Part shown: positions 33,808 to 60,468 of the stretch, piece by piece
Layout of the letters: each line of letters opens with the position of its first letter
Numbering within the stretch: the first letter of the stretch is position 1
Assembly (NCBI RefSeq): GCF_016887965.1
Contig: NZ_JAFDVD010000007.1
Location: forward strand, 1 to 64,000
DNA: 64,000 nucleotides
Source of the DNA: Phycicoccus sonneratiae
GTDB lineage: Bacteria > Actinomycetota > Actinomycetes > Actinomycetales > Dermatophilaceae
Direction: 5' to 3'
Program-made: the position numbers and the translations under genes
Notes under the pieces: generated by a model
The model's input: the letters and a program-made list of their open reading frames with translations, nothing else
Told to the model about the DNA's origin: nothing
Database searches by the model: none

Positions 33808-35262
33808 TCAGCCGAGCCCGCCGAGCAGGGCGTGCGGCAGGGCGCTCGTCACGAGCAGCACGGCGGTCCCGAGCACGACGACGACCGTCGTGGAGCGGGC
33901 CCGCGACCCCTCGTGTGCCGGCTCGTCGCCCTCCCCGGGCCGGGCCACGAGCACCGCCACCCAGCGGAGGTAGACGGCGATGCCGAGGACGACCGCGACG
34001 ACGGCCGCGGCCGCGACCGGCCAGACGCCCTCGGCGACCGGGGCCGCGACGGCGAGCACCTTGACGACGAGCCCGACGACCCCGGGCGGCAACCCGGCGA
34101 GGACGAGCAGGGCCAGGGCCAGCGCCCCACCGGCGAGCGGGTCGCGGCGCAGCAGGCCCCGGGTCGCCGCGAGCGAGCGCGCGCCGGTGCGGGCGAGCAC
34201 CCCGAAGGCCACGGCGGTGGCGGCGGCGTAGGTGAGGACATAGCCGGCCGAGGCCCGCAGCCCGTCGCTGCTCAGCGCGGTGAGGGGCACGACGACCCAG
34301 CCGGCCTGCGCGATGGTCGACCACGCGAGGAGGCGCACGGCGTCGTCCTGCCGGAGGGCCACGACCGTGCCGAGCAGCAGCGAGGCGGCGGCGGGCAGCC
34401 CGAGGAGCACGACGACCACCGAGCCCGCCGACCCCACGAGCGCCTCGACGACGACGAGCAGGGCCGCGGCCGCCGACAGCTTGGAGGCCGCGGCGAGGAA
34501 GAGCGTCGTCCCGAGGTCCGTCGTGGCGTAGGCCTGCGGGGTCCAGGCGTGGAAGGGGACGAGCGAGAGCTTGAAGCCGACGCCCGAGACGAGCGCGGTG
34601 ACGGCGAGCACGAGGACGGCTCGGCGCTCGGGGTCGGCCCAGGCGGCGGCGACCGACTCGGGCGAGAACGCGGCGTCGCCGGTCGCCGTGAGCCACAGCC
34701 CGGCCCCGAGGACGAGCAGCGCGAAGGACGCGAGGGAGGTGACGAGCAGGCTGAGGCCGCCGTGCGCCGCGGCGCGGGTGCCCCGGAGCACGACGAGGGC
34801 GACCGCCGGGACGGTGGCCAGCTCGAGGGCGACGAGCCAGGTCCCGAGGTCGCGGGCCGCGGCCACCGCAACGCCGCCCGTCGTCGCCGCGAGCAGCAGC
34901 GTGGCGGTGACGGTGGTGTCGCGCAGCCGGGGTCGGGCGTCGTGGTGCACGGCGAGGGCGGCCGCCGCGGCGAGCAGGACGCCCGCCTGGAGGGTCGAGG
35001 TGCGCGGCCCGGCGGTCCACAGGCACGCGCCGTCGGGGGCGGGGAGGCACAGGGTGCGCAGCGGCGTGGCGGGGTCGAGGAGGCTGCCGCGCAGGGCGAG
35101 CACCGCGCCGGCGACGAGGACGACCGCCGCGACGGGCAGCGCCCACCGTCCGCCCCGACGGGCCGGTGACACCGCGTCACCGACGAGGACGAGGACCACC
35201 CCGAGCACCGGGGCCAGGGCCGGCGCGAGCACGAGCCAGTCGACGGTGACGAGCGTGCTCAT
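33808..35262 (-). CDS. nuoN: NADH-quinone oxidoreductase subunit N
   Basis: 484 residues, about 14 membrane helices, with the antiporter-like proton channel motif around SLVPFHAWTPQAYATT and a conserved Lys in the preceding KLSL helix. It forms one of three antiporter-like pumps in complex I. ATG at 35262 overlaps the nuoM stop (ATGA). It is the last nuo gene of the block, followed by htpX. Confidence 0.9.
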   Translation of the reverse strand: MSTLVTVDWLVLAPALAPVLGVVLVLVGDAVSPARRGGRWALPVAAVVLVAGAVLALRGSLLDPATPLRTLCLPAPDGACLWTAGPRTSTLQAGVLLAAAAALAVHHDARPRLRDTTVTATLLLAATTGGVAVAAARDLGTWLVALELATVPAVALVVLRGTRAAAHGGLSLLVTSLASFALLVLGAGLWLTATGDAAFSPESVAAAWADPERRAVLVLAVTALVSGVGFKLSLVPFHAWTPQAYATTDLGTTLFLAAASKLSAAAALLVVVEALVGSAGSVVVVLLGLPAAASLLLGTVVALRQDDAVRLLAWSTIAQAGWVVVPLTALSSDGLRASAGYVLTYAAATAVAFGVLARTGARSLAATRGLLRRDPLAGGALALALLVLAGLPPGVVGLVVKVLAVAAPVAEGVWPVAAAAVVAVVLGIAVYLRWVAVLVARPGEGDEPAHEGSRARSTTVVVVLGTAVLLVTSALPHALLGGLG

Positions 35263-36734
35263 CGCGCACCGCCGACCGTCGCGACGGCGTCGGCCGTCAC
35301 CGAGAGGACGAGCATCGGGGCCACCCCGAGGACGACGACGAGCCCCGCGAGGCCCGCGAGCACCCACCGCTCGACACCGACGGTGTCGGCGGTCCGGCGG
35401 GCCTCGGGGTCGGGCCGGTCACCCGCCCAGACGAGGCCGGCGACGCGGAGCGCGTACGCCGCGGCGAGGGCCGCCCCGACGGCCGCGACGACCGCACAGG
35501 TGACGAGGACGGCCCGCGGGCGGTCGGCCGCCGGCGCCCACGCCGCGTAGACGGCGAGCAGCTCGCCCCAGAACCCCGCGAGCCCCGGGAGCCCGAGCGA
35601 GGCGGCGAGCCCGATGACGAGCGCGAACCCGAGCCGGGGCGAGGTCTCGCGCAGGGCCGGGCGGCGCACGGCGAGGTCGACGTCGCCCCAGCGCTGCTTG
35701 AGCCCGCCGACGAGGACGAACAGCAGCGCCGACACCAGCCCGTGCGCGACGTTGGCGTAGAGCGCGGCCTGGAGCCCGGTCTCCGAGCCGCTGGCGAGGG
35801 CGAGCACCACGAAGCCCATGTGCGCCACCGACGAGTAGGCGATGAGCCGCTTGAGGTCGCGCTCGACGAGGCAGACCAGCCCGCCCCAGACGATGCCCAG
35901 CGCCCCGGCGACCGCGAGCACGGGCGCGAGCCGGCCGAACCCGTCGGGGACCGTGGCGACCGGCAGCCGGACCAGCCCGTAGGTGCCCATCTTGAGAAGG
36001 ACGGCGGCGAGGAGCACCGACCCGGCCGTCGGCGCCGTCGTGTGCGCCGGGGGCAGCCAGGTGTGGAACGGCAGCACCGGCACCTTGACGGCCAGCCCGA
36101 CGACGAGCAGGGCGGCCACGCCCATCTGCGCGCCCGGACCGAGCGCCGCCCCCGCGCCGCCGGCGAGCTCGCGCAGGTCGGCGGTGCCGGCCGCTGCGAC
36201 GAGGGCGAGGATGCCGACAAGCATCGTCGTGGACCCGACGGCCGTGTAGAGGACGAAGCGCTGTGCGGCCTCGGTGCGCGCCCGGGGGTCGTGCGGGTCG
36301 CCGTACCGGCCGACGAGCACCCACATCGGGACGAGGACGACCTCGAAGGCGACGAGGAAGAGGACGGCGTCGCGGGCCGTGAAGGTCGCGAGCGCACCGG
36401 CCTCGACGAGGAGGAGGCAGCCGAGGAAGGTCGCCGGCGTCCCGCCCGCGGGCACCTCGACCCAGGCGTGCGCCGTGACGACGAGCCCCATGAGCACGGT
36501 GAGCAGGACGAGCGGCACCGAGATGCCGTCGGTGCCGAAGGACCACCGCACCCCGAGCTCGGGCAGCCAGGCCCGGTCGACGGCGGCCTCGGTGACGACG
36601 ACGCCGACGGCCAGGCCGGCGGTCGCGACCGCGGTGAGCAGGGCCAGCCAGCGGGCGGGGCGCACCGGCAGGGCACGACCGCCGGAGACGAGCCACAGCC
36701 CGACGGCGGCCGGCACGGCGAGGAGCAGGCTCAC
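35259..36734 (-). CDS. nuoM: NADH-quinone oxidoreductase subunit M
   Basis: About 491 residues. Antiporter-like subunit with the conserved Glu helix (FEVVLVPMWVLVGRYG) and the proton channel segment KVPVLPFHTWLPPAHTTAP. The GTG at 36734 gives a 4-bp GTGA overlap with nuoL, matching the rest of the operon; a GTG two codons earlier is equally possible. It pumps protons together with NuoL and NuoN. Confidence 0.91.
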   Translation of the reverse strand: MSLLLAVPAAVGLWLVSGGRALPVRPARWLALLTAVATAGLAVGVVVTEAAVDRAWLPELGVRWSFGTDGISVPLVLLTVLMGLVVTAHAWVEVPAGGTPATFLGCLLLVEAGALATFTARDAVLFLVAFEVVLVPMWVLVGRYGDPHDPRARTEAAQRFVLYTAVGSTTMLVGILALVAAAGTADLRELAGGAGAALGPGAQMGVAALLVVGLAVKVPVLPFHTWLPPAHTTAPTAGSVLLAAVLLKMGTYGLVRLPVATVPDGFGRLAPVLAVAGALGIVWGGLVCLVERDLKRLIAYSSVAHMGFVVLALASGSETGLQAALYANVAHGLVSALLFVLVGGLKQRWGDVDLAVRRPALRETSPRLGFALVIGLAASLGLPGLAGFWGELLAVYAAWAPAADRPRAVLVTCAVVAAVGAALAAAYALRVAGLVWAGDRPDPEARRTADTVGVERWVLAGLAGLVVVLGVAPMLVLSVTADAVATVGGAR

Positions 36735-38608
36735 GACCACGCGAGCACCCCCACGAGCCCGAGGACGACGACCGCCCCGAGCACGAGCCCGACCCCGGCG
36801 CTGGGCCGCTCGCGCCGGTGCGCCCGCTGCCCCGCCCAGCCGGCGGCCCGCGCCGCGACGGCCGTGCCGCGGACGTAGGCGTCGACGACCTCGGTGTCGA
36901 CGAAGGCGACGACCCGGGCGAGGCGCAGCACCGGACGGGCGACGAGGCGCCGGTACAGGGCGTCGACCCCGAGCCCCCGGTCGGCGTGCGGGACGAGGCG
37001 CCGGGCGAGCACCTCCGCGGGGTCGCGGTCGAAGCCGCCGCGCAGCGCGACGGCCACGCCGACCCCGACGACGAGCACGGTGAGCAGGAGCCAGAGCAGC
37101 GAGACGCGGTGCACCGCGAAGGAACCCGTGAGCACGACGAGCCCCCCGAACACGGTGAGCACGACGAGGACCCACAGCAGGCCGGGCACGGTCGGGGGCA
37201 CCCGGCCGGCCTCGGGACGACGCCGCACGTGCGCGGTGAGGACGAGGTAGCCGCGGGTCGAGTACGCCGCGGTGACGGCCGAGGTGAGCACGAGCGCGAC
37301 GAGGACGAGCACCCCCGGCCCGTCGGCGGCGACCGCACCGTCCCAGGCCGAGGACAGCACGTGCTCCTTCGAGACCCCACCGACGACGAGCGGGACGCCG
37401 GCGAGCGAGAGGAAGCCGACGAGGAAGGCGGCGCGCAGCACCGGCGTGGCGGCCCCGCTCCCCCGCAACGCGGTGGCCGCCGTCCCACCCGCGGCGACGG
37501 CGGCCCACCCGATGGCGAGGAAGAGCAGCGACTTGAAGATCGCGTGCGACCACAGGTGCAGCAGACCGGCATCGGGGTCGACGCCGGGACCCGCGACCGC
37601 CACTGCGGCGAGCATCACCGACACCTGGCTGACGGTGGACCACGCGAGCATCCGCTTGAGGTCGCTCTGCGCGAAGGCCAGCAGGGCGGCGAGCAGCATC
37701 GTCACGGACACGGCGACGCCGAGGAACCAGCGGGCGCTCGGGCTGTCCTCGAGCAGCGGGTGCAGCCCGGTGAGCACGACCGTGCCGGCGGCGACCATCG
37801 TCGCCGCGTGGATGAGCGCGCTGGCCGGCGTCGGGCCCTCCATCGCGTCGGCGAGCCAGTCCTGGAACGGCACCTGCGCCGACTTGCCGAGGACGCCGAC
37901 GACGACGAGGGCCAGCAGGACGGCCCGCAGGCGCGCATCCGGTGCGGCACAGGCGGTCAGGGCGTCCCCGAGCACCGAGCCGCCCGCGACGGCGGTGTCG
38001 ATGCATTGCGTCGGGCGGTCCCACGCCTCGAGGACCGTGCCGAGGTCCGTGGACCGCGCCCCGGCCGCGAGACCGACGAGCCCGAGGACGAAGCCGATGT
38101 CGGCGACCCGGGTGACGAGGAAGGCCTTGAGGGCGGCGCGGCGGGCGCTCGGCCGGCGCGACCAGTGGCCGATGAGCAGGTAGGAGCACCAGCCCATGAG
38201 CTCCCAGCCGACGATGGTCAGGACGAGGTCGGAGGAGACGACGACGAGGAGCATCGCGGCGCTGAAGAGCGAGACCGTGGCGGCGAACTGGCCGTAGCGG
38301 TCGTCGGTGCGCAGGTACCACGTGGAGTACAGCTGCACCGCCGTGGCGACGAGGGCCACGACGGTGGCGACGGCGAGGCGTGTGGGGTCGCTCGTCACCC
38401 CGAGCGGCACCTGCAGCTCGCCGACCGGGAGGGCCGGTCCGAAGCCGATGACGGTGCCGGACTGGCCGATCCACGCGACGAGCGCGAGCAGCAGCGTGGC
38501 ACCGGCGCCGAGCACGGCGAGGACCTGGGCAATGCGGTCGTCGCGACGCACGGCGACCCCGAGGCCGGCGGCGACGGCCGGCACGACGACGAGCAGCCAG
38601 GGGTTCAC
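36731..38608 (-). CDS. nuoL: NADH-quinone oxidoreductase subunit L
   Basis: 625 residues, the largest antiporter-like subunit. It has the channel motif KSAQVPFQDWLADAMEGPTP, the ELMGWCSYLLIG helix with conserved Glu, and a C-terminal amphipathic lateral arm. The GTG start overlaps the nuoK stop and also has GGAGG about 5 nt upstream. Part of the distal proton-pumping arm. Confidence 0.92.
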   Translation of the reverse strand: MNPWLLVVVPAVAAGLGVAVRRDDRIAQVLAVLGAGATLLLALVAWIGQSGTVIGFGPALPVGELQVPLGVTSDPTRLAVATVVALVATAVQLYSTWYLRTDDRYGQFAATVSLFSAAMLLVVVSSDLVLTIVGWELMGWCSYLLIGHWSRRPSARRAALKAFLVTRVADIGFVLGLVGLAAGARSTDLGTVLEAWDRPTQCIDTAVAGGSVLGDALTACAAPDARLRAVLLALVVVGVLGKSAQVPFQDWLADAMEGPTPASALIHAATMVAAGTVVLTGLHPLLEDSPSARWFLGVAVSVTMLLAALLAFAQSDLKRMLAWSTVSQVSVMLAAVAVAGPGVDPDAGLLHLWSHAIFKSLLFLAIGWAAVAAGGTAATALRGSGAATPVLRAAFLVGFLSLAGVPLVVGGVSKEHVLSSAWDGAVAADGPGVLVLVALVLTSAVTAAYSTRGYLVLTAHVRRRPEAGRVPPTVPGLLWVLVVLTVFGGLVVLTGSFAVHRVSLLWLLLTVLVVGVGVAVALRGGFDRDPAEVLARRLVPHADRGLGVDALYRRLVARPVLRLARVVAFVDTEVVDAYVRGTAVAARAAGWAGQRAHRRERPSAGVGLVLGAVVVLGLVGVLAWS

Positions 38609-38928
38609 GGCGCCTCCTCCCGGTCGGTGGCGTCGCTCGCGGCGTCGAGGTCGATGCTCCCGCGCAGCCGGAAGACCGCGAGGACAACGGCCAGCGCGAC
38701 GACGACCTCGGCGGCGGCGATGGTGATGACGAAGAGCGGCAGGACGCTGCCGGCCGCCCAGCGGTCGGCGCCGGTGGCCTGCGTGGTGAGGAGGAGGACG
38801 AGCCCGCCGCTGAGCACGAGCTCGACGCCGACGAGCAGCAGGACGGCGTTGCGGCGCACCGCGATCCCCGCCACGCCGAGCCCGACGAGGGCCGCGGCCA
38901 GCAGGTACGGGCCGACGAGGTGGATCAC
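38605..38928 (-). CDS. nuoK: NADH-quinone oxidoreductase subunit K
   Basis: 107 residues, three membrane helices, the standard size. Conserved Glu in VELVLSG of helix 2 and in AAAEVVVALAVV of helix 3 form part of the central hydrophilic axis. The GTG start overlaps the nuoJ stop (GTGA). The C-terminal 15 residues are acidic and outside the conserved core. Confidence 0.92.
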   Translation of the reverse strand: MIHLVGPYLLAAALVGLGVAGIAVRRNAVLLLVGVELVLSGGLVLLLTTQATGADRWAAGSVLPLFVITIAAAEVVVALAVVLAVFRLRGSIDLDAASDATDREEAP

Positions 38929-39449
38929 GGGCGGACCCCCGTCGCGGGGTCGTCGTCGGCCGGGCCGCGCGCGACGGCGAGCCCGCCCACGAGGGCCGCG
39001 AGGAGCAGCAGCGAGAGCAGCTCGAAGGGCCACACCCAGGTGCCGAACAGCTGCCCGGCGACCTGGGTCGTCGAGACGTCGGCGCGCCGCACGGTGCCGT
39101 CGGCCAGCGGCACGAGCACCGAGGCGAGCAGCCCCGCGGTGGCCAGCCCGAGCAGGGCCGCGCCGGCCGCCCGCCACGGCCCGACGGCGTGCGCGCGGTC
39201 CGGCCCGATGGGGGCCCGGGTGAGCATCAGCGCGAAGAGGACGAGGACGACCACTGCCCCGACGTAGACCAGGACGAGGACGAGCGCGACGAGCTCGGCG
39301 CCGAGGACGAGGAGCGCGCCCGCGACGCCGAGGAGGGCGACGACGAGCCACAGGGCCGCGTGCACGACGTGCCGCGTGGTGACGGCGAACAGCCCGCCGA
39401 GGACGGCGAGCACGGCGCTCGCCGCGAAGGCGGTGTCGAGCGCGGTCAC
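38925..39449 (-). CDS. nuoJ: NADH-quinone oxidoreductase subunit J
   Basis: 174 residues, five membrane helices. The third helix carries the conserved [16 protein letters not shown], where the pi-bulge of complex I lies. GTG overlaps the nuoI stop. It couples quinone reduction to the pumping arm. Confidence 0.91.
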
Positions 39450-40072
39450 GAGGGGTCCTCGGGCGGGTCCTTCTGCACGACCTTCGGCCGCACGGTGCGG
39501 GGCGGCCGGGCGCCGGCCCCGCCGACGAGCCCGGTGCCGCGCGCCGGCCGGTTGACCGCCGCGACCTCGGCGGGCTCGGCCGCCGACTCGTCGAGCGCCG
39601 GCGGCGGCGGGACGGTGGCCATCCACTCGCCGAGCCGGTCCTTCTCGTGGAGCAGGTCGCGGATGTCGACCTCGGCGTACTCGAACTGCGGGCTCCAGAA
39701 GAGGGCGTCGAACGGGCACACCTCGATGCAGATGCCGCAGTACATGCAGAGCGAGAAGTCGATGGCGAACCGGTCGAGGACGTTGCGCTGGCGCTCGCGG
39801 CCGCCCTCGGTGGTCGCCGGGATCGTCTCCTTGTGCGAGTCGATGTAGATGCACCAGTCCGGGCACTCGCGGGCGCAGAGCATGCACGAGGTGCAGTTCT
39901 CCTCGAGCAGCGCGATGACCCCGCGGCTGCGCGGCGGCAGGGTCGGCGCGACGTCCGGGTACTCGTGGGTGTGGCTGGGGCGCAACGCGGTCCGGGCCGT
40001 CGTGGCCAGGCCCTTGAGGACCCCCGGCAGCCCGCCGTCGCGTCCTCGTTCGTCCTTCGGCTCGGTGCTCAC
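39446..40072 (-). CDS. nuoI: NADH-quinone oxidoreductase subunit I (2[4Fe-4S])
   Basis: 208 residues. Two complete ferredoxin motifs, [12 protein letters not shown] and [12 protein letters not shown], bind clusters N6a and N6b, which pass electrons to NuoB. There is a Pro-rich C-terminal tail of about 60 residues beyond the core. In a complex lacking NuoEFG this subunit and the surface near it would be the entry point for electrons from a ferredoxin. GTG overlaps the nuoH stop. Confidence 0.93.
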
Positions 40073-41025
40073 CAGCCCACCACCACCCCGACGCCCGTCA
40101 GCAGGAGCTGGCCGAGCGCCAGCGGCACGAGCCACAGCCAGGCCATCCGCTGGAGCTGGTCCTCGCGCAGCCGCGGCCAGGCGACGCGCACCCACACGAC
40201 GACGAGCGAGACGACGAACCCCTTGAGCAGGAACCACAGCCAGCCGAGGGCGTCGCTGAACGGCCCGTGCCAGCCGCCGAGCCAGAGGGTCGTGAAGAGC
40301 AGCGACATGACGACGATGCCCGCGTACTCGGCGAGGAGGAAGAAGGCGAAGCGCAGGCCGGTGTACTCGGTCCAGGCGCCCATGACGAGCTCGGCGTCGG
40401 CGACCGGCATGTCGAAGGGTGGGCGCTGCAGCTCGGCGACCGCGGCCACGAGGAACACCACCGCGCCGGGCAGCTGCCAGAGCAGCCACCACGGGCTCCA
40501 CGCCTCGACGAGCCCGGCGAGCGAGAGCGACCCGCCCGCGAGGGCCACCGAGGCGACGGCGAGCACGACGGGCAGCTCGTAGGACACGAGCTGGGCCGCG
40601 GCCCGCAGGCCGCCGATCAGCGAGTACTTGTTCGCGCTCGACCAGCCGGCCATCAGCGTGCCGAGCGCCCCGACGGACGTGGCGGCGAGGACGAGGAGCA
40701 CCGACCCCGGCACCTCGACGGCGGCGACGCCGGGGTGCACCGGCAGGGTGGCGAGGGCGACGAGGTACGGCACGAGGGCGACGGCCGGGGCGAGCCGGAA
40801 GACCCACCGGTCGGCGGCCGCCGGGACGATGTCCTCCTTCTGGACGAACTTCACGCCGTCCGCGACGAGCTGGGCCCAGCCGTGGAAGCCGCCGGCGTAC
40901 ATCGGGCCGAGCCGGCCCTGCATGTGCGCCATCACCTTGTGCTCGGCCTGCCCGACGAGCAGCGGCAGGACGAGGAACGCCGCGAGCGCCGCGACGGCTC
41001 GCAGCACCACCTCGAGGAGAGTCAT
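40069..41025 (-). CDS. nuoH: NADH-quinone oxidoreductase subunit H
   Basis: 318 residues, eight helices. Conserved cytoplasmic loops of the quinone chamber are present: [37 protein letters not shown] with the following SYELP, and [21 protein letters not shown] at 41025 overlaps the nuoC stop (ATGA). It follows nuoC directly, where nuoD(EFG) would normally stand. Confidence 0.93.
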
Positions 41026-41543
41026 CGCGGACCCCACTCCGGCGGTGGGACGCCCGGGGCCTGCACCCGGCGGCGGCTCGGCGAGCGCGCGGAGTCGTGG
41101 CCCTCCCCCGGCTCCTTGCCGCCCGGCCAGGGCTTGGACGCGCGCGCGGCGAGCTGGAAGGACTTGCGCAGCGGGGTCCCCTCGAAGCCGTCGGGCAGCA
41201 GGAGCGGGCGCAGGCCGAGGCCGCTGCCGTCGTCGAAGCCGGCAACGTCGATGCCGAACATCTCGTGGGTCTCGCGCTCGTGCCAGGCGGCGCCGGCGAA
41301 CACCGGGGTGAGCGAGTCGATGGCGGCGCCGTCGGGCAGCCGGGTGGTGAGCAGCAGGCCGCGCAGGGCGCCGGGCACCGACACGTCGTAGAGGTGGCAG
41401 AGCACGTCGAAGCCGGGGGCGGCCTCGTCGTCGGTGCGGTCGACGGCGCTCAGCCAGTCGAGGAAGGCGAACCCGTCGTCGCGCGCGGCGGCGGCGGCCT
41501 CGCGCCACCCGCCGGGCTCGACCACCCGTGTCTCGTCCGCCAC
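41022..41543 (-). CDS. nuoC: NADH-quinone oxidoreductase subunit C
   Basis: 173 residues. The 30-kDa subunit signature is [17 protein letters not shown] followed by [19 protein letters not shown]. It is not fused to NuoD, and nuoD does not follow. GTG at 41543 is chosen because TAGGCT lies 7 nt upstream; a GTG 15 codons earlier has no such support. It starts a long coupled operon nuoC-H-I-J-K-L-M-N. NuoC anchors NuoB and NuoD in other organisms. Confidence 0.88.
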
Positions 41544-41550
41544 GTCCGGC

Positions 41551-41556
41551 AGCCTA
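41551..41556 (-). promoter_or_regulatory. -10 hexamer TAGGCT of nuoC
   Basis: TAGGCT on the minus strand, 7 nt before the nuoC GTG; leaderless start inferred. It gives the second nuo block its own promoter. Confidence 0.45.
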
Positions 41557-41667
41557 GCGAGACACCGCCTCCACGCACCCGAGCGCACCCGCCGGAGGTC
41601 CGCCGAACGCCTCTCCCCCGGAACGCCGCGCTTCCCCCGGGAACGGTTGCGGGGTGAAGCGCACCGG

Positions 41668-41684
41668 TATCGGGTGACCCGATA
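41668..41684. promoter_or_regulatory. 17-bp perfect palindrome, possible operator
   Basis: TATCGGGT-G-ACCCGATA lies between the divergent nuoC and the hypothetical gene at 41755, 71 bp from the latter. Perfect symmetry suggests a dimeric regulator; which one is unknown. Confidence 0.45.
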
Positions 41685-41742
41685 CTCGTGCGACAGGAGG
41701 GGTTCGGCGTCGAAGGCCGGGTCGAATACACCCCGTGCTGGT

Positions 41743-41748
41743 TACGAT
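41743..41748 (+). promoter_or_regulatory. -10 hexamer TACGAT
   Basis: TACGAT is 6 nt before the GTG at 41755; leaderless start inferred. Confidence 0.42.
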
Positions 41749-41754
41749 GACGCC

Positions 41755-42243
41755 GTGGCCGAGCCCGACGCGCCCGAGGTCCTCGAGGACGTCGACGGCG
41801 ACACCGTCCCCCGCTCCCGGCTGCGCGCCGCGTGGGGCCCACCCGAGACGCTCGACACGCCTGGGACGCCCGGGACGCCCGGGACGCCCGCTCCCGCCGC
41901 ACCCGCCGTGCCCACCCCGGCGGCCCGTCCCCTCGTCGCCGACCCGCCGGAGCCCGCCCGCGCCGCCGAACGCCGCACCGGCCCGGACCTCGAGCACCGC
42001 ATCGCGCCGTGGGCCGTGCCGCCGGCCTCGACGATGGTCCCGCCGGCACCGCCGCACAGCCCGGCCGGGCCGGCACCCGCCGAGCCCGCTCCGTCGCCCA
42101 CGGGCGGCTCGGCGTCGCGGGCCCGCGCGCACGAGCGCTTCGCCCCGCCGCGCGGTGCGGTCGACCTCGCCCCCGACCGCGCCACGCCGCTCACCGACCC
42201 CCCGCGCCGGGGCCGGTGGCCCTGGCGCCGACGTCGCGGCTGA
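41755..42243 (+). CDS. Pro/Ala-rich hypothetical protein
   Basis: 162 residues, no recognised domain. It is largely disordered and Pro-rich, with a short GTPGTPGTP repeat near residue 40 and a strongly basic end (RRGRWPWRRRRG). There is no signal peptide or membrane helix. Third-codon GC bias and the TACGAT hexamer 6 nt before the GTG support it as a real gene. The basic tail might bind nucleic acid or membrane, but nothing shows which. Confidence 0.5.
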   Translation: MAEPDAPEVLEDVDGDTVPRSRLRAAWGPPETLDTPGTPGTPGTPAPAAPAVPTPAARPLVADPPEPARAAERRTGPDLEHRIAPWAVPPASTMVPPAPPHSPAGPAPAEPAPSPTGGSASRARAHERFAPPRGAVDLAPDRATPLTDPPRRGRWPWRRRRG

Positions 42244-42292
42244 CCGGCCCCGGCGACGGCCCGACCTCCTGTTCACCGGGGCCGCCCGGCGG

Positions 42293-42298
42293 TATCCT
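42293..42298 (+). promoter_or_regulatory. -10 hexamer TATCCT of the small zinc-protein pair
   Basis: TATCCT sits within CGGTA-N8-TACCG, about 27 bp before the first ATG at 42325, which has a separate AAGGGGG ribosome site. This gene therefore has a normal leader. Confidence 0.4.
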
Positions 42299-42324
42299 CG
42301 GGTACCGACGACAAGGGGGTCCCG

Positions 42325-42528: not shown

Positions 42529-42533
42529 GCACC

Positions 42534-42731: not shown

Positions 42732-42761
42732 GCCGACCCCGCCGCGGCGGGTGGCCCGGAG

Positions 42762-46333: not shown

Positions 46334-46340
46334 GGTCGGG

Positions 46341-47327: not shown

Positions 47328-47382
47328 GGGGTCCTCGTCATGGGCTCGGGGGCGGGGGTCCTCGGGGGGCGGGTGGCGCGGC

Positions 47383-50300: not shown

Positions 50301-53300
50301 TGGCGAGCGGCTGGTCGGCCGGTGGCGCGGTGACGGTGATCCGCCCGGACGTCGCGTCGAGGGTGGCGCGGCCGGCGAGGTCGGGGTTGAGCGGCTCGAG
50401 CGGCTCGACGGTGGCCCGCTCCCCGATCGGCTGGATGTCGTTGGCGAGCGCGTCGACGACCACCGTCGCACCCGGGGCGACGGTGACGTCGTCGTCGACC
50501 GCCACGACCGGCTGCGGGTCGCCCGGCGGGGCGACGGCGATGCGGACCGTGCCGGTGCCGACCTTCCCGTACCGGTCGCCGAGGAGGTAGGTGAAGTCGT
50601 CGGTGCCGCCGCTCGTCGGGTACGCCTGGTAGGTGATCGACGAGGGCGTGACGGCGAGCACCCGGCCGAGGCTCGGCGCGGAGGCCAGGCCGGCGAGCGT
50701 GGTGGAGTCGCCGTCGGGGTCCGAGCCGGAGGCCGCCACCGAGACGGTGATGGTGTCGCCGGCCACGACCCGGCCCTCGAGGGTCGGTGGGGCCGGCGCC
50801 CGGTTGAGCCGCTCCGGAGAGGGCGGCGGGACGACGTTGATCCGCGCCAGGCCGCTCGCCCGCGCGCCGGAGGGGCTCTCGACGACGTACGTGACGGCGA
50901 CCGTGCGCGCGGTCGTGACCTCGGGGGCCTGGTAGCGCACGACGGAGCCGGCGACGTACGCGGCGCCGACGTCGTCGGTGGTCGGCCCGCCGTCCGGTCC
51001 CCCGACGGGCAGGGTGCCCGGGCGGGGCGCGCCCTCGACCCGCGGGGAGAGCCGGAGGGTCGCGCCGGTGGGGTCGACGTCGTTGTCGAGCACCGGGACC
51101 GACACGTGGTCGCCGGAGCGGACCGTGGCCGTGTCGTCGACGACGAGCGGGGTGTCGTCGGCGGGCTCGGGCAGCTGGAGCACCGAGACGTCGCCCGTGG
51201 CGTTGCGTCCCTCGCCGTTGGTCACCGTGTACCTGACGAGCGCCGGGTTGGGCCGCAGGGACGGGCTGGTGGCGGCGATGCGCAGCCAGCGACCGCGCAG
51301 GACCGCGACGTCGACGGCATCGGACTCGGTCTTCGCGCCCTGGACGACGAGCAGCCCGCCGGCGGGGTCGACGTCGTTGGCGAGGACGTCGACGATCGTC
51401 GCGGTCTGGCTGCGCAGGACCGCCTGGTCGGGCATCGCGGTGATCGCCCCCGGCCGGTCGCTGGCCGCCCGGACGTCGACGCGGATGGCGCCCCGCGCGA
51501 TGTTCGCGTCGCCGTACCGCACGGGGTACGTGAGGAGGTAGGTGCCGGGCGCACCGGCGGTGACCGACACGGTGCCGGCCTCGAGGCTCGTGTCGACGGT
51601 CGTGCCGTCCGGCGCGGTGACGGCGCCCGCGAGCTGGAGGCTGGCCGACGGGTTGACGGGGTCGGTGCCGGGCACGTCGTTGTCGAGGGGCCGCAGGACG
51701 ATCGGCTTGCCGACCTCGCCGCGTCCGACGTCCGGCAGCGGCGTGGCCGGCGTCGTGCGCTGCGCGTCGGCGGCCAGCACGTCGACCGAGAGTCGGCCGA
51801 CGGTCGAGGCCGTGCCGTCGGACACCGTGTACTCGACCGTGCGCGGGCCGGCGTCGCCGCCCGCGGTGTACCGGATCCGGCCGTCCGGCGTGAGGCCCAC
51901 CGGGGTGTCCTCGTCCTTGGCGGAGGTGACGGCGACCGGGTCGGAGTCGGGGTCGCGCCAGTCGCCGACGACCGGCACGCTGACCGAGCCCTTGTTGACG
52001 ACGCTCGTCACCGAGGGCACGAAGTCCGGGCGCAGCGCCGGGGCGCCGTTCTCGTCCGGCGAGCGCACCTCGACCGTGACGCGGGCCGACGAGCTGTTGC
52101 CGCGGCCGTCGTCGATGACGTAGTCGAACTCGGCCGAGCGGGCGGTGGGTTCGAGCGTCAGCTGCACCGCCTGGCCGTCCGGCGAGATCGCCACCGCGCC
52201 CGTGGCGGACGGCAGGGGCGACACCTTGGTGATCGACAGGACGCTGCCCGAGGGGTTCGCGTCGTTGTCGAGGACGTGGAGGATGCTCGTGCGGCCCGGC
52301 CGGGCACCGAGGGTGTCGTCACGGGCCTGCGGCGGCTTCGAGCTCCGGTCGACGGTGCTCGACTGGTCGGGGTCCTTCGGCGGGGACTGCGACGACGGTG
52401 GGGCGACGGCGTCCCAGTTGTCGAGCCGTCGACCGGTGTCGAGCGACCACACGGCGCCGGTGGACCCGTCGTTGAGCGCGACCGAGCGGTGGTTGAGGCG
52501 CAGGTGCGGGGAGATGAGCGTGCTCGCCCGGTCGAGCCGCACGTCCTGAACGGTCCCGCCGCAACCCTTGACCGCGCGCCCGGGGCTGCCGGACCACGCC
52601 GCGTAGGTGCAGCCGTCGAGGACGACGGGCGCGGCGGCCGGGCCGGTGCCGCCGTCGGTGACGGTGCGGGCCACGCCGGTGGCGAGGTCGACCGACACGA
52701 GGGCCCGAGGGGTGGCGACGAGCACCTCGCCGTCGACCCGTCCCTCCTCCGGCACGCCGTCGGTGAGGGACGTGCCGGTGACCGACGTGCGGGTGCCGTC
52801 CGGCCGGGCGATGACGCCCGTGACGGTGTCGAGGACGACCGGGCCGTCGGTGGTCAGCACGAGGTGGGCGTCCTGCAGGGGTCCGCCGAGCGAGCGCGAG
52901 TCCGTGCCGAAGCGGCCGTCGCCGGTGGGTCGCAGGATGACGAGCCGGCCGCCGGACCCCGCGGCGTAGGCGGTGCCCTCGTCGTCGACGGCGACGTCGG
53001 CGGTCAGGGCGTCCCCGGTGACGTCGGGGGCGATGGGCACCTGCGCGACCGGTGCGGTGGAGAAGCCGTCGACGCCGACGGCCGTCGGGGTCGTCGAGAC
53101 CGACGCCTTCACCTCGCCGGAGTCGGGGTCGACGAAGACCGCGGTCCCGTTGCCGACGGCCAGGGGTGCGGACGGGGGCACGGCGACGGTCCGGTCGGTG
53201 ACGAGCGTGCCGGCGCGGACGTCGACGGGGGCCACCTTCCCGGTGACCCGGTCTCGGGTGAGCACCGACGACCCGGACTGGACGACGTCGAGCTGGTAGC

Positions 53301-53577
53301 TGGGGCCGCGCTCCTCACCGGGTACGAAGGCGGCGTCGAGGTGCGCGGCGGGGGCGTTGAGGCGGCCGAAGAGCCCGCCGCGGTCGTTCGTGACCCACAG
53401 GGTGCCGTCGTTGGCCTCGAGGTGGTCGCTCGTGTAGCCGGGGCTGCGCGTGGCCGCGTACCCGTACCCGCCGAGCACGACGGCGAGCACGGTGGCGACG
53501 ACGACCCCCGTGCGGGGTCGCCGAGGACCGCGACGTGCCGCATGGCCGCGCCGCGTCGTCCCGCGCTCCTCGCTCAT
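47383..53577 (-). CDS. Giant membrane-anchored surface protein with cadherin-like and FN3 repeats
   Basis: 2064 residues. An Arg-rich cytosolic start is followed by one membrane helix (about 25-42) and a propeller-like region to about 400. Nine tandem cadherin-like (Big_9) repeats of about 100 residues span about 416 to 1290, marked by DND-x-DP motifs such as PVLDNDVDPTG. After an intervening region come three fibronectin III domains (about 1510-1770; RFTVRARNAVGWGPPS, PFTIRARNTAGWGPG) and a C-terminal beta-rich end. Topology is N-in with nearly all of the chain outside the cell. It is first in an operon with moxR, duf58 and the transglutaminase-like gene, resembling the bifidobacterial PFNA cluster (pkb2-fn3-aaa-duf58-tgm) but lacking the kinase. 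A role in adhesion or sensing is inferred. Confidence 0.82.
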   Translation of the reverse strand: MSEERGTTRRGHAARRGPRRPRTGVVVATVLAVVLGGYGYAATRSPGYTSDHLEANDGTLWVTNDRGGLFGRLNAPAAHLDAAFVPGEERGPSYQLDVVQSGSSVLTRDRVTGKVAPVDVRAGTLVTDRTVAVPPSAPLAVGNGTAVFVDPDSGEVKASVSTTPTAVGVDGFSTAPVAQVPIAPDVTGDALTADVAVDDEGTAYAAGSGGRLVILRPTGDGRFGTDSRSLGGPLQDAHLVLTTDGPVVLDTVTGVIARPDGTRTSVTGTSLTDGVPEEGRVDGEVLVATPRALVSVDLATGVARTVTDGGTGPAAAPVVLDGCTYAAWSGSPGRAVKGCGGTVQDVRLDRASTLISPHLRLNHRSVALNDGSTGAVWSLDTGRRLDNWDAVAPPSSQSPPKDPDQSSTVDRSSKPPQARDDTLGARPGRTSILHVLDNDANPSGSVLSITKVSPLPSATGAVAISPDGQAVQLTLEPTARSAEFDYVIDDGRGNSSSARVTVEVRSPDENGAPALRPDFVPSVTSVVNKGSVSVPVVGDWRDPDSDPVAVTSAKDEDTPVGLTPDGRIRYTAGGDAGPRTVEYTVSDGTASTVGRLSVDVLAADAQRTTPATPLPDVGRGEVGKPIVLRPLDNDVPGTDPVNPSASLQLAGAVTAPDGTTVDTSLEAGTVSVTAGAPGTYLLTYPVRYGDANIARGAIRVDVRAASDRPGAITAMPDQAVLRSQTATIVDVLANDVDPAGGLLVVQGAKTESDAVDVAVLRGRWLRIAATSPSLRPNPALVRYTVTNGEGRNATGDVSVLQLPEPADDTPLVVDDTATVRSGDHVSVPVLDNDVDPTGATLRLSPRVEGAPRPGTLPVGGPDGGPTTDDVGAAYVAGSVVRYQAPEVTTARTVAVTYVVESPSGARASGLARINVVPPPSPERLNRAPAPPTLEGRVVAGDTITVSVAASGSDPDGDSTTLAGLASAPSLGRVLAVTPSSITYQAYPTSGGTDDFTYLLGDRYGKVGTGTVRIAVAPPGDPQPVVAVDDDVTVAPGATVVVDALANDIQPIGERATVEPLEPLNPDLAGRATLDATSGRITVTAPPADQPLAIRYSITGASGEPSTATVHVRGRAGTNLPPVPRNALAQPGPGATSVDVDLLAGAVDPDSPGGALTVTRVFNAPGARIEGGVVTLPVTDAPQVLSFEVTDAGGAAALGLVHVPAGGSGAPSVREDALVRVDRNATATVDLDDVVVDPAGRELTLTTDDRLAASPAGKLRVEADGPSRLRVTGLAGYVGPAAIAFEVSTAATADDPTARRAFLTVPVQVGPETPVLRCPPTAIDVVVGGTSRPLGIPQLCHVWTATPDGLTDLRFTGRFESPVAGLTVSNRGDDTLVVEAGAAAVPGSTARMLVTAEGTEAVPAVITVRVAPAEPPTMSPVVVSGVRAGSTATVNIEGYLSSRLGDPAFSIVGFERTSGSAASVTQDGPTTLSVTPAGDARGRITVRVTITDVESTTRRDRQGTGTLSIDVLGVPDAPGTPAQTGPTLSRSARLTWQAPNDNGLPVEAYEVRWEGGGTQLCDASPCLVTGLTNATEHRFTVRARNAVGWGPPSAASAPIVPDEVPGAPVDPRVVDPANRTVTVTWSPAPTQGSAVDRYLVTWPGGRLETTSTSVTPTGLDNTLPTPFTIRARNTAGWGPGVTVEGQSAGTPATPDAPRLEATEVAGGARQAVVVSWNAVSPNGPGDTSYTVTRTGPGGSTDVCRTSATRCDADAVENDGSTYEYRVVASNPFYSSPASAPASLEAIGTPGDFSNASAVATGEDRTIRLRFTSPAARDDSLTITCRVSGATCGSWPAPAEPTRFDEVVTVPANGSEYTLTLTATNSGELSSSTQVTSDVVYGPLGPVSVEDVQTVGPYVFFTVTADPNGRPATVAVAVTGGNAAPVGDDTTGNGPWSRRYAVKAGFSSALAITATASRGSESQSAAGAGSTGSGSVRAAGEALPGGGVALTLTANNLSPSTTLQCVVDEAGSGGTTTVGLPTDTGGDGTRAIPASEFTATSGTRYTITCDDGVSPETPVRRTWVAP

Positions 53578-53675
53578 GATCCCTGGGTCCGACCAATCGG
53601 GACGCGTTCACGGCCGCGTCCCGGGTCCATTGTGTGCGACGCGCGGCGTCCACGTGGCCGGGTTCGGGAATCCCG

Positions 53676-53694
53676 CCCGGCGTGTCTCGCCGGG
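53676..53694 (-). terminator. Stem-loop at the end of the PhoX gene
   Basis: CCCGGCG-TGTCT-CGCCGGG, 7-bp perfect arms, directly follows the stop of the PhoX-like gene in its direction of transcription. There is no U-run. The 117-bp gap also carries the promoter region of the fn3 operon. Confidence 0.55.
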
Positions 53695-55749
53695 TCAGGC
53701 CCGGTGCACCTGCACCACGCTCGGGCGCGGCCCGCCCCACCGGCCGCGCGACAGCGAGCCGGGCGCGGCGTAGTCGGGGAAGAAGGAGTGCTGGTCGGCC
53801 CAGGACCCCTCCTCGCCGGGGTGCTGCACGCAGACGAAGACCGTGCCGGCGCCGTCGCGGTCGTGGACCACCGGCCCGCAGGTCTCGGCCTCGCGGGGGA
53901 CGGCGAGGAACTGCTCGACCTTGCCGCGGTCGCGGCCCTCGAGGGTCACCCGGTGCAGCGCGTCGCAGTACCCGATGGTCCCCGGCTGGCCGTCGGTGGA
54001 GATCCACAGGGCGCCGGTGGAGTCGAACGCGACGTTGTCCGGGCAGGAGATCGGCGAGACCGGGCCCTCGTAGCCGCCGAAGTAGGTCCCCGCCCCGTCC
54101 GGGGTGCCGCAGACGAGGAGCAGGTTCCACGAGAAGCGGGTCGACGTGGGGTCGTTCCGGTCCTCGGTGAGCTCGAGGACGTGGCCCTCGCGGTTGGTGA
54201 CCCGGGGGTTGGCCTCGTCGGCCGGGGCGTTCGCGCCGACCCCGCGGTTCGTGTTGTTCGTGAGCGCCGCGTAGACCCTGCCCGTGACGGGGTTGGGCTG
54301 GACGTCCTCGGGCCGGTCCATCTTCGTCGCGCCGACCCTGTCGGCCGCCAGCCGGGTGAAGACGAGCACCTCGGCGACGTCCATCCCGGGCACGCGCGAG
54401 CGGCCGTTCTTGACGAGCGGCAGCCACTCGCCGCGGCCGTCGAAGCGCTCGTCCGACGGCAGGGTGCCGGTGCCGTCGATTTCCGCGGCCGGGCTGTCGC
54501 CGGTGAACCGGGCGACGTAGAGGTCGCCGCTCGCCAGGAGGGTCTTGTTGTGGGCGCGGGCCGCGCGGCTGCTGCCCCTGGCCATCCGCTTCTCGGAGAC
54601 GAACTTGTAGACGTACTCGAACCGCTCGTCGTCGCCGGAGTAGGCGACGACCCGGCCGTCGCGGGCGACCCGGACGTTCGCGCTCTCGTGCTTGAAGCGG
54701 CCGAGCGCGGTGTGCTTGACGGGCGTGGAGTCGGGGTCCATCGGGTCGACCTCGACGACCCAGCCGAACCGGTTCACCTCGTTCTCGTAGCCCGGCTGGC
54801 GGGCGTCGAAGCGCGGGTCGACGGTCCACCAGTTGCGGCCGGTCGCGCTGACCGTCGTCGGGATGCCGTAGCGGGCGTTCTCGGGGGTGGCGGCGGCGAC
54901 GAAGTACTGGTGGAAGTTCTCCTCGCCGGAGAGCACGGTGCCCCAGGGGGTCGTGCCGCCGGAGCAGTTGTTCTGCGTGCCGAGGACGGTGCGGCCCACC
55001 GGGTCGTCCTTCGTGCGCAGGAGCCGGTGACCGGCGGCCGGGCCGGAGACGGTGAACCTCGTCTGCACGTGGACGCGCCGGTTGAGGTGGCTCCCCCGCA
55101 CGTACTCCCACGGGCGGCCCTCGCCGGAGCGCCGCAGCTCGACGACGCTCAGGCCGTGGGCGGCCATCGCGATGCGCTTCTGCTCCGCGAGCGTGTCCGG
55201 GTCGGTCGTCGGGGGGAACATGATCCCCTCGTTCGTGTACTCGTGGTTGACGACCGCGACGGCCCGCCGGCCGTGGCTCCCGTCGAGCTCGATGACGTCG
55301 AGGTAGTCGCAGTTGTAGCCGAACTGGCCGAGCTGCGAGCGCTCGCTCTGGTGCTCGGGGTCGAACTCCTCGCTGTGCCGGAACAGCGGGTCGCCCCACC
55401 GGATGACCGGCGTCCAGCGCCAGCCCTGCGGGACGGTGAGGGCGTCGGTGGACGCGGGGACCGGGTCGATCGGCGTGAAGCGCAGGCCGCGACCGTGGCC
55501 GTGGCCCGGGTGCGCGGCGGCCGCGTCGGCCGTGCCGACCGCGAGGGCGAGGGCCCCGGCGGCGCCGAGCGCGCCGCGGCGGCTGAAGGCGCGCGACGCG
55601 ACGTCGCGGAAGTACTCGTTGCCGCTGGTGTTCGGGGCGTCGTGGGCGCACTGGTCGCCGCACTTGAGGCGGCAGGTGACCGGGCTGCGCTTGCCGCGGG
55701 CGTGGGCGGCGAGGGCGAGGAGCGGGCGGTTCTCGGGGGCGATCGTCAT
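53695..55749 (-). CDS. PhoX-like (DUF839) phosphatase with Tat-type signal
   Basis: 684 residues. As in the family, a leader of about 55 residues has CGDQCAHDAPNTSGN. A twin-arginine signal follows (SRRGALGAAGALALA), so export is in folded form by Tat. The PhoX beta-propeller is recognisable by EGIMFPP, LSGEENFHQYF, NRFGWVVEVDPMDP and CPDNVAFDSTGALWIS. PhoX enzymes are Ca2+/Fe3+-dependent alkaline phosphatases releasing phosphate from monoesters. ATG at 55749 is supported by TACCGT 7 nt upstream. It is separated from the DUF2568 gene by 102 bp holding a weak PHO-box-like pair. Confidence 0.84.
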   Translation of the reverse strand: MTIAPENRPLLALAAHARGKRSPVTCRLKCGDQCAHDAPNTSGNEYFRDVASRAFSRRGALGAAGALALAVGTADAAAAHPGHGHGRGLRFTPIDPVPASTDALTVPQGWRWTPVIRWGDPLFRHSEEFDPEHQSERSQLGQFGYNCDYLDVIELDGSHGRRAVAVVNHEYTNEGIMFPPTTDPDTLAEQKRIAMAAHGLSVVELRRSGEGRPWEYVRGSHLNRRVHVQTRFTVSGPAAGHRLLRTKDDPVGRTVLGTQNNCSGGTTPWGTVLSGEENFHQYFVAAATPENARYGIPTTVSATGRNWWTVDPRFDARQPGYENEVNRFGWVVEVDPMDPDSTPVKHTALGRFKHESANVRVARDGRVVAYSGDDERFEYVYKFVSEKRMARGSSRAARAHNKTLLASGDLYVARFTGDSPAAEIDGTGTLPSDERFDGRGEWLPLVKNGRSRVPGMDVAEVLVFTRLAADRVGATKMDRPEDVQPNPVTGRVYAALTNNTNRGVGANAPADEANPRVTNREGHVLELTEDRNDPTSTRFSWNLLLVCGTPDGAGTYFGGYEGPVSPISCPDNVAFDSTGALWISTDGQPGTIGYCDALHRVTLEGRDRGKVEQFLAVPREAETCGPVVHDRDGAGTVFVCVQHPGEEGSWADQHSFFPDYAAPGSLSRGRWGGPRPSVVQVHRA

Positions 55750-55756
55750 GGTCAGG

Positions 55757-55762
55757 ACGGTA
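55757..55762 (-). promoter_or_regulatory. -10 hexamer TACCGT of the PhoX gene
   Basis: TACCGT on the minus strand, 7 nt before the ATG at 55749; leaderless start inferred. Confidence 0.42.
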
Positions 55763-55794
55763 GGAGCGGCCCCCGTCCCGGCGGGCGTCGCCGA

Positions 55795-55812
55795 CCTGAA
55801 CACCGGGTGACG
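55795..55812 (-). promoter_or_regulatory. Weak PHO-box-like direct repeat
   Basis: On the minus strand CGTCACC-CGGT-GTTCAGG shows two 7-mers spaced 11 nt apart, each with two mismatches to the actinobacterial PhoP half-site GTTCACC. It lies about 35 bp upstream of the -10 of the PhoX gene, where an activator site is expected. The match is poor, so it is a candidate only. Confidence 0.25.
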
Positions 55813-55851
55813 GTTGCCCGTGGGGACGGTGACGCGCGGGTCAGACGATGG

Positions 55852-56211
55852 TCAGGACGGCGCGTCGGCCGGACGGTGCAGCACGGTCTGGGCCGCGACG
55901 ACGGCCAGCCCGGCGATGCCGACGAACCACGCCCACCCGGTCTGCCCGACGGCGAGCAGCCCGAACGCGACCCCGTAGACGAGGACGATGGCGGCCACCG
56001 TGCGCGGCCCCTGCGCGAGCCGCAGCCGGGCCTTCGGCGCCATGAACAGCCCCCAGAGGACGAGGACGAGCGCGGTGGCGCCGACGGCGGCGGCCCATCC
56101 GGCCGCCCCTCCCCCGGCCGCGTGGTGCGCGAGGGCGCCGACCCCGCCGAAGAGGGCGAGCTCGGTGACGAAGGCGATCAGCGCGAGGAGCGCGAGGGCG
56201 GGCGTCGTCAC
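55852..56211 (-). CDS. DUF2568 (YrdB family) membrane protein
   Basis: 119 residues, four membrane helices. The family pattern [18 protein letters not shown] is in helix 1 and [14 protein letters not shown] follows helix 2. Function unknown. The GTG start overlaps the nuoB stop by 4 bp (GTGA), so it is cotranslated with nuoAB, an unusual partner for complex I genes. Confidence 0.82.
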
Positions 56212-56801
56212 GGCTTGGTGACCAGCCCGCGGGTGACGTCGGCGGCGGTGGCGGCCCGGTGCCCGGCGAAGCGTCCGGCCCGGCGGGCGGCGATGGCCCC
56301 GCCACTGACCCGCTCGGCGGCGATCTTCTCCTGGAGCCGGATGATCCCCTGGAGCAGCGCCTCGGGGCGCGGGGGGCATCCGGGCACGTAGACGTCGACG
56401 GGGATGACCTGGTCGACGCCCTTGGTGACCGAGTACGAGTCCCAGTACGGCCCACCGGAGTTCGAGCAGGCGCCGAAGCTGATGACGTACTTCGGCTCGG
56501 GCATCTGGTCGTAGAGGCGGCGGATGGCCGGCGCCATCTTGTCGGTGACCGTGCCGCTGACGACCATGAGGTCGGCCTGCCGCGGGCCGGGCGCGAACGG
56601 GATGACCCCGAGCCGGATGAAGTCGTGCCGGCCCATCGAGGTGGCGATGAACTCGATGGCGCAGCAGGCGAGCCCGAAGTTGAAGACCCACAGGCTGTAG
56701 CGGCGACCCCAGTTGAGGACGACGCGCACCGGCTTCGGGGCGTGCTCGCCGACCGGGCCGACGCGCGGCATCGGGAGGTCGACGCTCATCCGGGTGGTCA
56801 C
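56208..56801 (-). CDS. nuoB: NADH-quinone oxidoreductase subunit B (cluster N2)
   Basis: 197 residues. All four ligands of the terminal [4Fe-4S] cluster N2 are present: the tandem pair in GLACCAIEF, Cys in [10 protein letters not shown], and Cys in [14 protein letters not shown]. It passes electrons to quinone together with NuoD, which is not encoded in the window. GTG at 56801 overlaps the nuoA stop (GTGA); ATG four codons later is an alternative. Confidence 0.93.
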
Positions 56802-57163
56802 CGCAGGTCCCAGCGGAGGAGGCCGCGGCGGCCGGCGTGGAGCAGCCCGAGGAGGACGACGCCGACGAAGACGACGACCTCGACGAGCGAGGCGACCCCG
56901 AGGTCGGCGTCGCGCAGGACGAGCGCCCACGGGAAGAGGTAGACGGCGTCGACGGCGAAGACGACGTAGAGGAAGGCGAAGGAGAGGTAGCGCACCCGGG
57001 ACTGCGCCCAGCCGGCGCCGACCGGGTCGACGCCCGACTCGTACGTGGTGCGCCCGACCGGTCCGGCCGCCCGCGGCGCGACGAGCCGCCGGACGACCAT
57101 CGCGGCGGCGACCAGCAGCACGCCCGCGAGGATCACCGCGGCGGCGGCGAGGTAGCCCTCCAT
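56798..57163 (-). CDS. nuoA: NADH-quinone oxidoreductase subunit A
   Basis: 121 residues, three membrane helices. The conserved loop is [26 protein letters not shown] and the helix-2 acidic motif is [13 protein letters not shown]. It starts a short operon nuoA-nuoB-DUF2568. ATG at 57163 has TAGGCT 8 nt upstream. It lies 14 kb from nuoC and is divergent from korA. Confidence 0.93.

Positions 57164-57496: not shown

Positions 57497-60468
<2,972 letters not shown>

Follow-up and report, generated by a model that had tools for sequence, protein, structure and literature searches.

Extra complex I genes beside a complete nuoA-N operon have been described in Streptomyces, where nuoA2, B2, D2 and H2-N2, contiguous except for nuoD2, probably form one operon according to the available text of PMC3765725, and the accessible part of PMC8388888 gives much the same account of this nuo2 set. 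A second described system is the 11-subunit enzyme of Desulfitobacterium (nuoABCDHIJKLMN), for which electron uptake from ferredoxin or similar donors and the formation of menaquinol have been proposed (PMC11238625, available sections). Here we analyze a set of nuo genes of Phycicoccus sonneratiae in a stretch of 64,000 nucleotides (the window; positions 1 to 64,000 of contig NZ_JAFDVD010000007.1, called C24 below) from a 4.11-Mb genome that is 98.8% complete. The window carries nuoA, B, C and H-N (set 2) and no nuoD, for which the initial annotation had offered two explanations, a hybrid enzyme using the NuoD of a second, complete nuo cluster, or a nuoD that had moved. A second nuoD gene, nuoD2, was found 105 kb from nuoC2 on the same contig, and it is very probable that set 2 and the relocated nuoD2 together specify one complete 11-subunit complex I-like enzyme that has no N-module (NuoE, F and G).

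The accessible Streptomyces accounts describe a similar arrangement, namely a partial second operon without E, F and G, a nuoD2 that stands apart, and a complete nuoA-N operon in addition; since these reports already describe a separate nuoD2, the missing nuoD is not new. Unlike the Streptomyces set, that of P. sonneratiae has nuoAB further parted from nuoC-N by 14.7 kb. In their available text the Streptomyces accounts mention neither nuoC2, nor a methyltransferase neighbour, nor the tryptophan described below; named Streptomyces nuoD2 loci likewise have a frame of the MidA methyltransferase family beside nuoD2 (e.g. L243; L numbers denote fetched neighbourhoods). The Desulfitobacterium enzyme, as the available sections present it, shares the lack of an NADH module but is encoded by one operon in a strict anaerobe, whereas here nuoD is remote and a 14-subunit set is additional. 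PMC13011467 was set aside because, in its available part, it concerns a 14-gene cluster and has no bearing on set 2. Our literature searches, which covered few subscription papers, found nothing on a nuoB2-C2-I2 trio or on a MidA gene linked to an actinobacterial nuoD. The wider history of the set, its tie to MidA, the tryptophan and the reduced sets may be new, their absence from the literature searched, part of it in extract, being no proof that they are unpublished.

The ten set-2 genes of the window are all open frames, each matching its expected family:

nuoA2: 56798-57163, minus strand; PF00507, 82.7 bits; homologue of complex I chain 3
nuoB2: 56208-56801, minus strand; PF01058, 101 bits, and NCBIfam NuoB; N2-cluster subunit
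nuoC2: 41022-41525, minus strand; PF00329, 90.9 bits; 30 kDa subunit
nuoH2: 40069-41025 with an ATG start, minus strand; NCBIfam NuoH NF004741, 298.1 bits against a cut-off of 305
nuoI2: 39446-40072, minus strand; TIGR01971, 93.9 bits against a cut-off of 113
nuoJ2: 38925-39449, minus strand; PF00499, 110.3 bits
nuoK2: 38605-38928, minus strand; PF00420, 63.3 bits
nuoL2: 36731-38608, minus strand; PF00361 and PF00662; TIGR01974, 336 bits against a cut-off of 407.5
nuoM2: 35259-36740, minus strand; TIGR01972, 385.5 bits against a cut-off of 263.8
nuoN2: 33808-35262, minus strand; PF00361; best family TIGR01770, 189.5 bits, below its cut-off of 332.6

The initial annotation had called these genes intact and had nuoC passing straight into nuoH with a 4-bp overlap; the overlap is ATGA, and the open frames, family matches and retained key residues agree with that description. 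NuoB2 has the N2-cluster cysteines (Cys46, Cys47, Cys112, and Cys142), NuoI2 has the two CxxCxxCxxxCP motifs that provide the N6a/N6b ligands, and in the channel motifs of NuoL2, M2, N2 and K2 the key residue, which we take to be the Lys, Glu or His of the antiporter-like subunits and the Glu of NuoK, was kept in all 14 comparisons with set 1. Set 1 is a complete nuoA-N operon, with Pfam matches for all 14 genes, that lies on the same contig (C24:70135-86492), beginning 6 kb past the end of the window and 13 kb from nuoA2; the complete cluster postulated earlier therefore exists, and it contains genes for NuoE, NuoF and NuoG. Whole-genome searches for NuoD (PF00346), NuoE (PF01257) and NuoF (PF01512) gave no match within C24:1-64000, bearing out the reported absence of these genes from the window, and no NuoG was identified among the part of the window genes that was compared with the family library, no whole-genome NuoG search being made.

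On the PF00346 search of the whole genome, NuoD was located at two places, both on C24: the complete operon (NuoD1) and a separate gene directly following one of the MidA family.

MidA-family gene: C24:145639-146595, plus strand; 318 residues; PF02636 (Methyltransf_28), 67.9 bits against a cut-off of 23.3
nuoD2: C24:146592-147803, plus strand; 403 residues, full-length NuoD; PF00346 the only Pfam match

The two genes overlap at GTGA with the called GTG start of nuoD2, and a later in-frame start is possible. One flank of the pair holds a DUF2520 gene, panC, a panD-like gene, nadB and nadC, and the other holds a sortase gene, a DUF3180 gene, folate genes and ftsH (names assigned partly by eye). 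NuoD1 and NuoD2 of P. sonneratiae are ∼41% identical over the matched part, and among named NuoD2 the nearest, at 95%, is from Phycicoccus jejuensis. A role for this second PF00346 protein in a Group 4 [NiFe] hydrogenase was rejected, as NuoD2 matches nothing else in Pfam and reaches 24.3 bits with the NCBIfam hydrogenase model, far under the cut-off of 600.

To place nuoD2 among its relatives we used a sample of 197 genomes of the class (G numbers), in which NuoD2-type matches were separated from NuoD1 by their identity and because they extend to the C-terminus, NuoD1 matches ending near residue 322-328; all presence counts given for NuoD2, NuoH2, NuoB2 and PF02636 in these genomes are counts among the matches listed. 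NuoD2 was present in 86 of the genomes and NuoH2 in 53. NuoD2 accompanied NuoH2 in 51 of the 53, the two others being incomplete genomes (G014, 72%, and G108, 80%), and a close NuoB2 accompanied NuoH2 likewise in 51 of 53. Two genomes of one genus in the family of P. sonneratiae, G128 and G250 (both 100% complete), have NuoD2 as their only NuoD match and gave no match for NuoF, which was matched in the control genomes G048 and G178. In G128 the single NuoH and the single NuoB are both of set 2 and lie within a full A2-N2 cluster; for G250 the evidence covers NuoD and NuoF only.

These results bear on the hybrid enzyme, in which set 2 would borrow NuoD1 while nuoD2 served another role. The complete operon, 13 kb away from nuoA2, has its own nuoD, and the cell carries both operons, but we regard such borrowing as very unlikely because G128 and G250 have NuoD2 as sole NuoD and no NuoF, and G128 retains the full set. 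The low identity of NuoD1 and NuoD2 also argues against it, as does gene order outside the class. In 16 of 20 outside-class neighbourhoods (L283-L298) nuoD2 lies between nuoC and nuoH; 15 of these contain all eleven genes, and L286 ends at a contig end. The remaining four (L299-L302) hold deeper NuoD homologues, also in nuo gene groups, with tyrosine at the quinone-site position treated below. All eleven genes were further seen in the outside-class loci L312, L314, L315 and L318, with L316 cut by a contig end after nuoI and L311 after nuoD2. No other set-2 nuo gene was found near nuoD2 in any of 80 named loci, within the available flank of up to 10 kb, and in those class genomes that entered the tree, NuoD2 and NuoH2 (or NuoB2) are on different contigs or far apart. 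We conclude that nuoD2 belongs to the window set, the composition of the enzyme and the relocation being held jointly with high confidence. Of the two explanations offered at first, that of a moved nuoD stands, and the hybrid sharing NuoD1 is disfavoured.

All 11 subunits are thus encoded, ten in the window and NuoD2 elsewhere on C24. NuoE, F and G do not accompany the set as they would in a 14-subunit NADH complex I, the nearest copies being in the other operon, and judged by gene content they are dispensable, no NuoF having been found in G128, with its full set, or in G250. Another arrangement would have the set-2 proteins act as isoforms within NADH complex I, for example with NuoL2 and NuoM2 swapped in, or would have NuoEFG dock on the set-2 module. 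Differential incorporation of NuoL2/NuoM2 has been proposed for Streptomyces (PMC3765725, available text), and NuoE, F and G are encoded in the P. sonneratiae genome. We consider this arrangement improbable, for the duplication spans all 11 subunits rather than L and M alone, G128 and G250 gave no NuoF match, and other lineages have an 11-gene operon with no interposed E, F or G. The initial reading of the absence of E, F and G as a complex I type lacking the N-module is supported.

The history of the relocation was examined with a maximum-likelihood tree built from 85 NuoD sequences, with 200 bootstrap trees, from which rows shorter than 330 residues and the long-branch relocated NuoD2 of G137, G047, G065 and G127 were left out and in which eight rows are unlabelled. 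The 48 relocated nuoD2 form one side of a branch (support 95/82) that appears in 95% of the 200 bootstrap trees, and when the tree is rooted on the outgroup this clade sits among operon copies. An earlier tree, under the same length limit, that included the four long-branch sequences placed the 44 class rows on one side of a 100/100 branch; seven outside-class rows fell in its relocated clade (L269, L271, L272, L276, L277, L281, and L282), four of which were confirmed as relocated by their surroundings (L308, L313, L310, and L309). The clade includes eight copies from families f47, f82 and f86 outside the class (L303-L306, L308-L310, and L313), and in the loci of these families nuoD2 is 1 to 7 kb from the MidA gene, with no set-2 gene found near nuoD2 in the available stretch. 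In G316 (L307, contig C104), nuoD2 stands beside MidA on a 7.7-kb contig with no nuoC upstream; this copy, which may represent a second, independent move, groups with the operon copies from its family, in which L311 and L312 have nuoD2 after nuoC. Since the relocated copies form a single clade, one ancient relocation very likely accounts for all of them other than G316. By this account nuoD2 would once have stood between nuoC2 and nuoH2, its present place in other actinobacterial lineages, would have left the operon in an ancestor of the class and at least one further lineage, landing near a gene of the MidA/NDUFAF7 family, and nuoC2 and nuoH2 would then have closed up. This history would explain a complex I operon seemingly without its quinone-site subunit, the gene having departed long ago and stayed apart across much of Actinomycetota.

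The quinone site of NuoD2 was examined by aligning NuoD to 2fug. Tyr87 of Thermus Nqo4, described as conserved and essential in the available part of PMC7434922, is replaced by tryptophan (Trp98) in all 44 class NuoD2 aligned and in 29/29 NuoD2 from outside the class; the equivalent of His38 is kept in 43 of the 44. Tyrosine occupies the position in two NuoD1 and in the four deeper homologues.

PF02636 is the NDUFAF7/MidA family, an assignment supported by PDB matches of an operon-linked relative (L294:1086-2102) to 5ztz, an NDUFAF7 homologue (1.1e-10), and 1zkd, DUF185 (1.4e-20). A MidA-family gene lies in the flank of nuoD2 in 71 of the 80 named loci. Of the 197 genomes, 74 have both PF02636 and NuoD2, 12 have NuoD2 without PF02636, 5 have PF02636 without NuoD2, and 106 lack both. 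One of the 12, G128, has a MidA-family gene by tblastn; the five with PF02636 alone are G014, G108, G023 and G076 (72-80% complete) and G069 (94%), and G014 and G108 carry NuoH2. Among 80 outside-class genomes hand-picked from 296 for this comparison, PF02636 was matched in 29 of the 48 that have NuoD2 and in none of 32 with a weak or absent best NuoD match. In L292, L294, L296, L314 and L315 the MidA-family gene comes after nuoN at the end of the 11-gene operon, and a hidden Markov model of three operon-linked relatives found the copy in the P. sonneratiae genome at 3.6e-13, its only match among the 165 genes of C24:1-178000.

NDUFAF7 dimethylates Arg85 of NDUFS2, equivalent to Thr64 in Thermus, as described by Rhein et al. 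(PMC3829151, available text). The aligned residue of NuoD2, Arg75, is arginine in 44/44 class sequences, taken from the 86 genomes with NuoD2, and threonine in the two NuoD1 aligned. Because arginine is also found there in 29 outside-class NuoD2, including lineages without PF02636, the arginine of NuoD2 does not by itself predict the methyltransferase. Locus and residue thus resemble the NDUFAF7/MidA system, in that a PF02636 protein adjoins nuoD2 and Arg75 aligns to NDUFS2 Arg85 through Thermus Thr64, and by this analogy we favour, with moderate confidence, a MidA-family enzyme that methylates Arg75 of NuoD2 and aids assembly. Of the two papers used for NDUFAF7/MidA (PMC3829151 and PMC9006661, accessible text), the review gives MidA/NDUFAF7 an alpha-proteobacterial origin, whereas the copy here is actinobacterial, is linked to the gene that presumably encodes its target, and goes with one of the two types of NuoD. 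The genetic tie of nuoD2 and MidA offers a bacterial setting, in which genes are readily deleted, for asking why complex I arginine methylation exists.

Two neighbouring genes, not subunits of the enzyme, are divergent from nuoA2 and relate to the possible electron donor:

korA: 57509-59374, plus strand; 2-oxoacid:ferredoxin oxidoreductase alpha; TIGR03710, 640.5 bits
korB: 59371-60468, plus strand; 2-oxoacid:ferredoxin oxidoreductase beta; TIGR02177, 259.6 bits against a cut-off of 261.9

Within 9 kb of nuoB2, korA was found in 5 of the 11 loci with a full set and in 17 of the 29 with a reduced set; many of these loci are cut by contig ends. On the basis of family knowledge, the Desulfitobacterium enzyme as described in the available sections of PMC11238625, and the korAB neighbour, we read the enzyme as a candidate ferredoxin:menaquinone pump, reduced ferredoxin being the somewhat likelier donor. 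Electrons would enter at NuoI2 from reduced ferredoxin, possibly supplied by KorAB, and pass through N6a, N6b and N2 to menaquinone at the site with Trp in place of the usual Tyr, this transfer driving proton pumping, and the methyltransferase would modify Arg75 for assembly as NDUFAF7 does Arg85 of NDUFS2.

Several points weigh against this combined picture. The set-2 complex of P. sonneratiae is predicted from gene content and sequence, and in NuoH2 one of the acidic residues of the NuoH loop is replaced by Val, as judged by eye. A tryptophan in place of a tyrosine called essential (PMC7434922, available part) leaves quinone reduction uncertain. Two draft genomes of 230-280 contigs, G005 and G033, have NuoH2 and NuoD2 with no NuoB2-type match. 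The donor is drawn from neighbourhood only, and korA was found in 0 of the 20 outside-class neighbourhoods. The MidA-family protein of P. sonneratiae is divergent, PF02636 covering model positions 78-238 of 249, and a PDB search with it gave nothing significant. Lastly, 12 of the 86 NuoD2 genomes of the class and 19 of the 48 outside it have no PF02636 match, so methylation cannot be required in every case.

NuoD2 occurs without NuoH2 in 35 of the 86 genomes, among which at least two NuoB matches were seen in 33, one in G190 and none in G097. The nuoB2 neighbourhoods fetched cover 29 of the 35 (not G083, G097, G116, G157, G167, and G190), and in 27 of them a nuoB2-nuoC2-nuoI2 trio stands without nuoH2 or J2-N2, the other two (G070 and G016) being cut by contig ends before nuoI2. 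These reduced-set loci, with the trio and a remote nuoD2, are L129-L134, L136-L138, L152 and L154-L170. The four cysteines are kept in 29/29 reduced-set NuoB2 (23 by motif and six by reading) and both cluster motifs in 27/27 reduced-set NuoI2. Among the matches listed, NuoH of the other type is present in 33 of the 35 genomes, the two without it being G060 (78% complete) and G097 (77% complete). Seven of eight reduced-set rows in the tree group in a single clade (97/98) that lies among full-set rows, and the eighth, G030, groups with the full-set G158 (95/76). From these placements at least two lineages, and perhaps a third, appear to have lost the membrane arm while keeping B2, C2, I2 and the remote D2; the third may be G161 (not in the tree), whose NuoD2 is 78% identical and which has the trio. 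G030 keeps an A2-like piece. A shortened nuoH2-like frame was also seen by eye in G030, between nuoC2 and nuoI2 (L138:13803-14300), and suggests that the arm was lost recently there. By eye, NuoC2 of the window and of a reduced set (L129:7907-8662) share a C-terminal tail, KPWPG.KEPGE ... PPG.P.

The membrane-arm genes missing from some relatives, together with the shortened frame of G030, could be taken to mean that set 2 is a decaying relic. This is extremely improbable for the window set, whose genes are all open and retain the key residues; no NuoD besides NuoD2 was found in G128 and G250, and data from Streptomyces point to expression as a single operon (PMC3765725, available text). For the reduced sets we put forward, tentatively and at somewhat less than even confidence, that Actinobacteria have a ferredoxin-fed second complex I whose Q-module (NuoB2-C2-D2-I2, with the Trp and a MidA-methylated Arg) would be a functional unit of its own, acting as a soluble ferredoxin-dependent enzyme or docked on the membrane arm of NADH complex I and replacing the Q-module of that enzyme. 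The natural Trp at a position regarded as essential, and a B-C-D-I quartet that has repeatedly outlived its membrane arm, make function of the Q-module alone directly testable.

The 14.7-kb block, annotated with Pfam, is as follows:

block parting nuoA2-nuoB2 from nuoC2-nuoN2: 41526-56207; transglutaminase/TgpA-like, DUF58, MoxR-like, Ig-repeat, PhoX and DUF2568 proteins and small frames

It was found in three of the four other genomes of the genus examined (G275, G298, and G245, the last observed from the nuoC2 side as its sequence begins after nuoB2). The block is younger than the relocation of nuoD2, for the fourth of these genomes, G197, lacks it, and in G048 and G178 the genes A2-B2-C2-H2 form an unbroken run. 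Within the block, the DUF2568 gene shares 4 bp with nuoB2, and the frames at 42325-42528 and 42534-42731 encode similar small Cys-containing proteins (PFLCRTNLRH ... RFVRC..C.RER) that apparently arose by tandem duplication. A gene for an M48 peptidase (HtpX-like) lies beyond nuoN2. Extra NuoE-/NuoF-like matches occur outside both nuo groups at C17:87322-88652, C17:297593-298042 and C25:145873-146355. A polyprenyl synthetase gene (C24:69110-70129) directly follows nuoN of the complete operon, as in many of the relatives fetched, and in several lineages such a gene lies between the two nuo operons.

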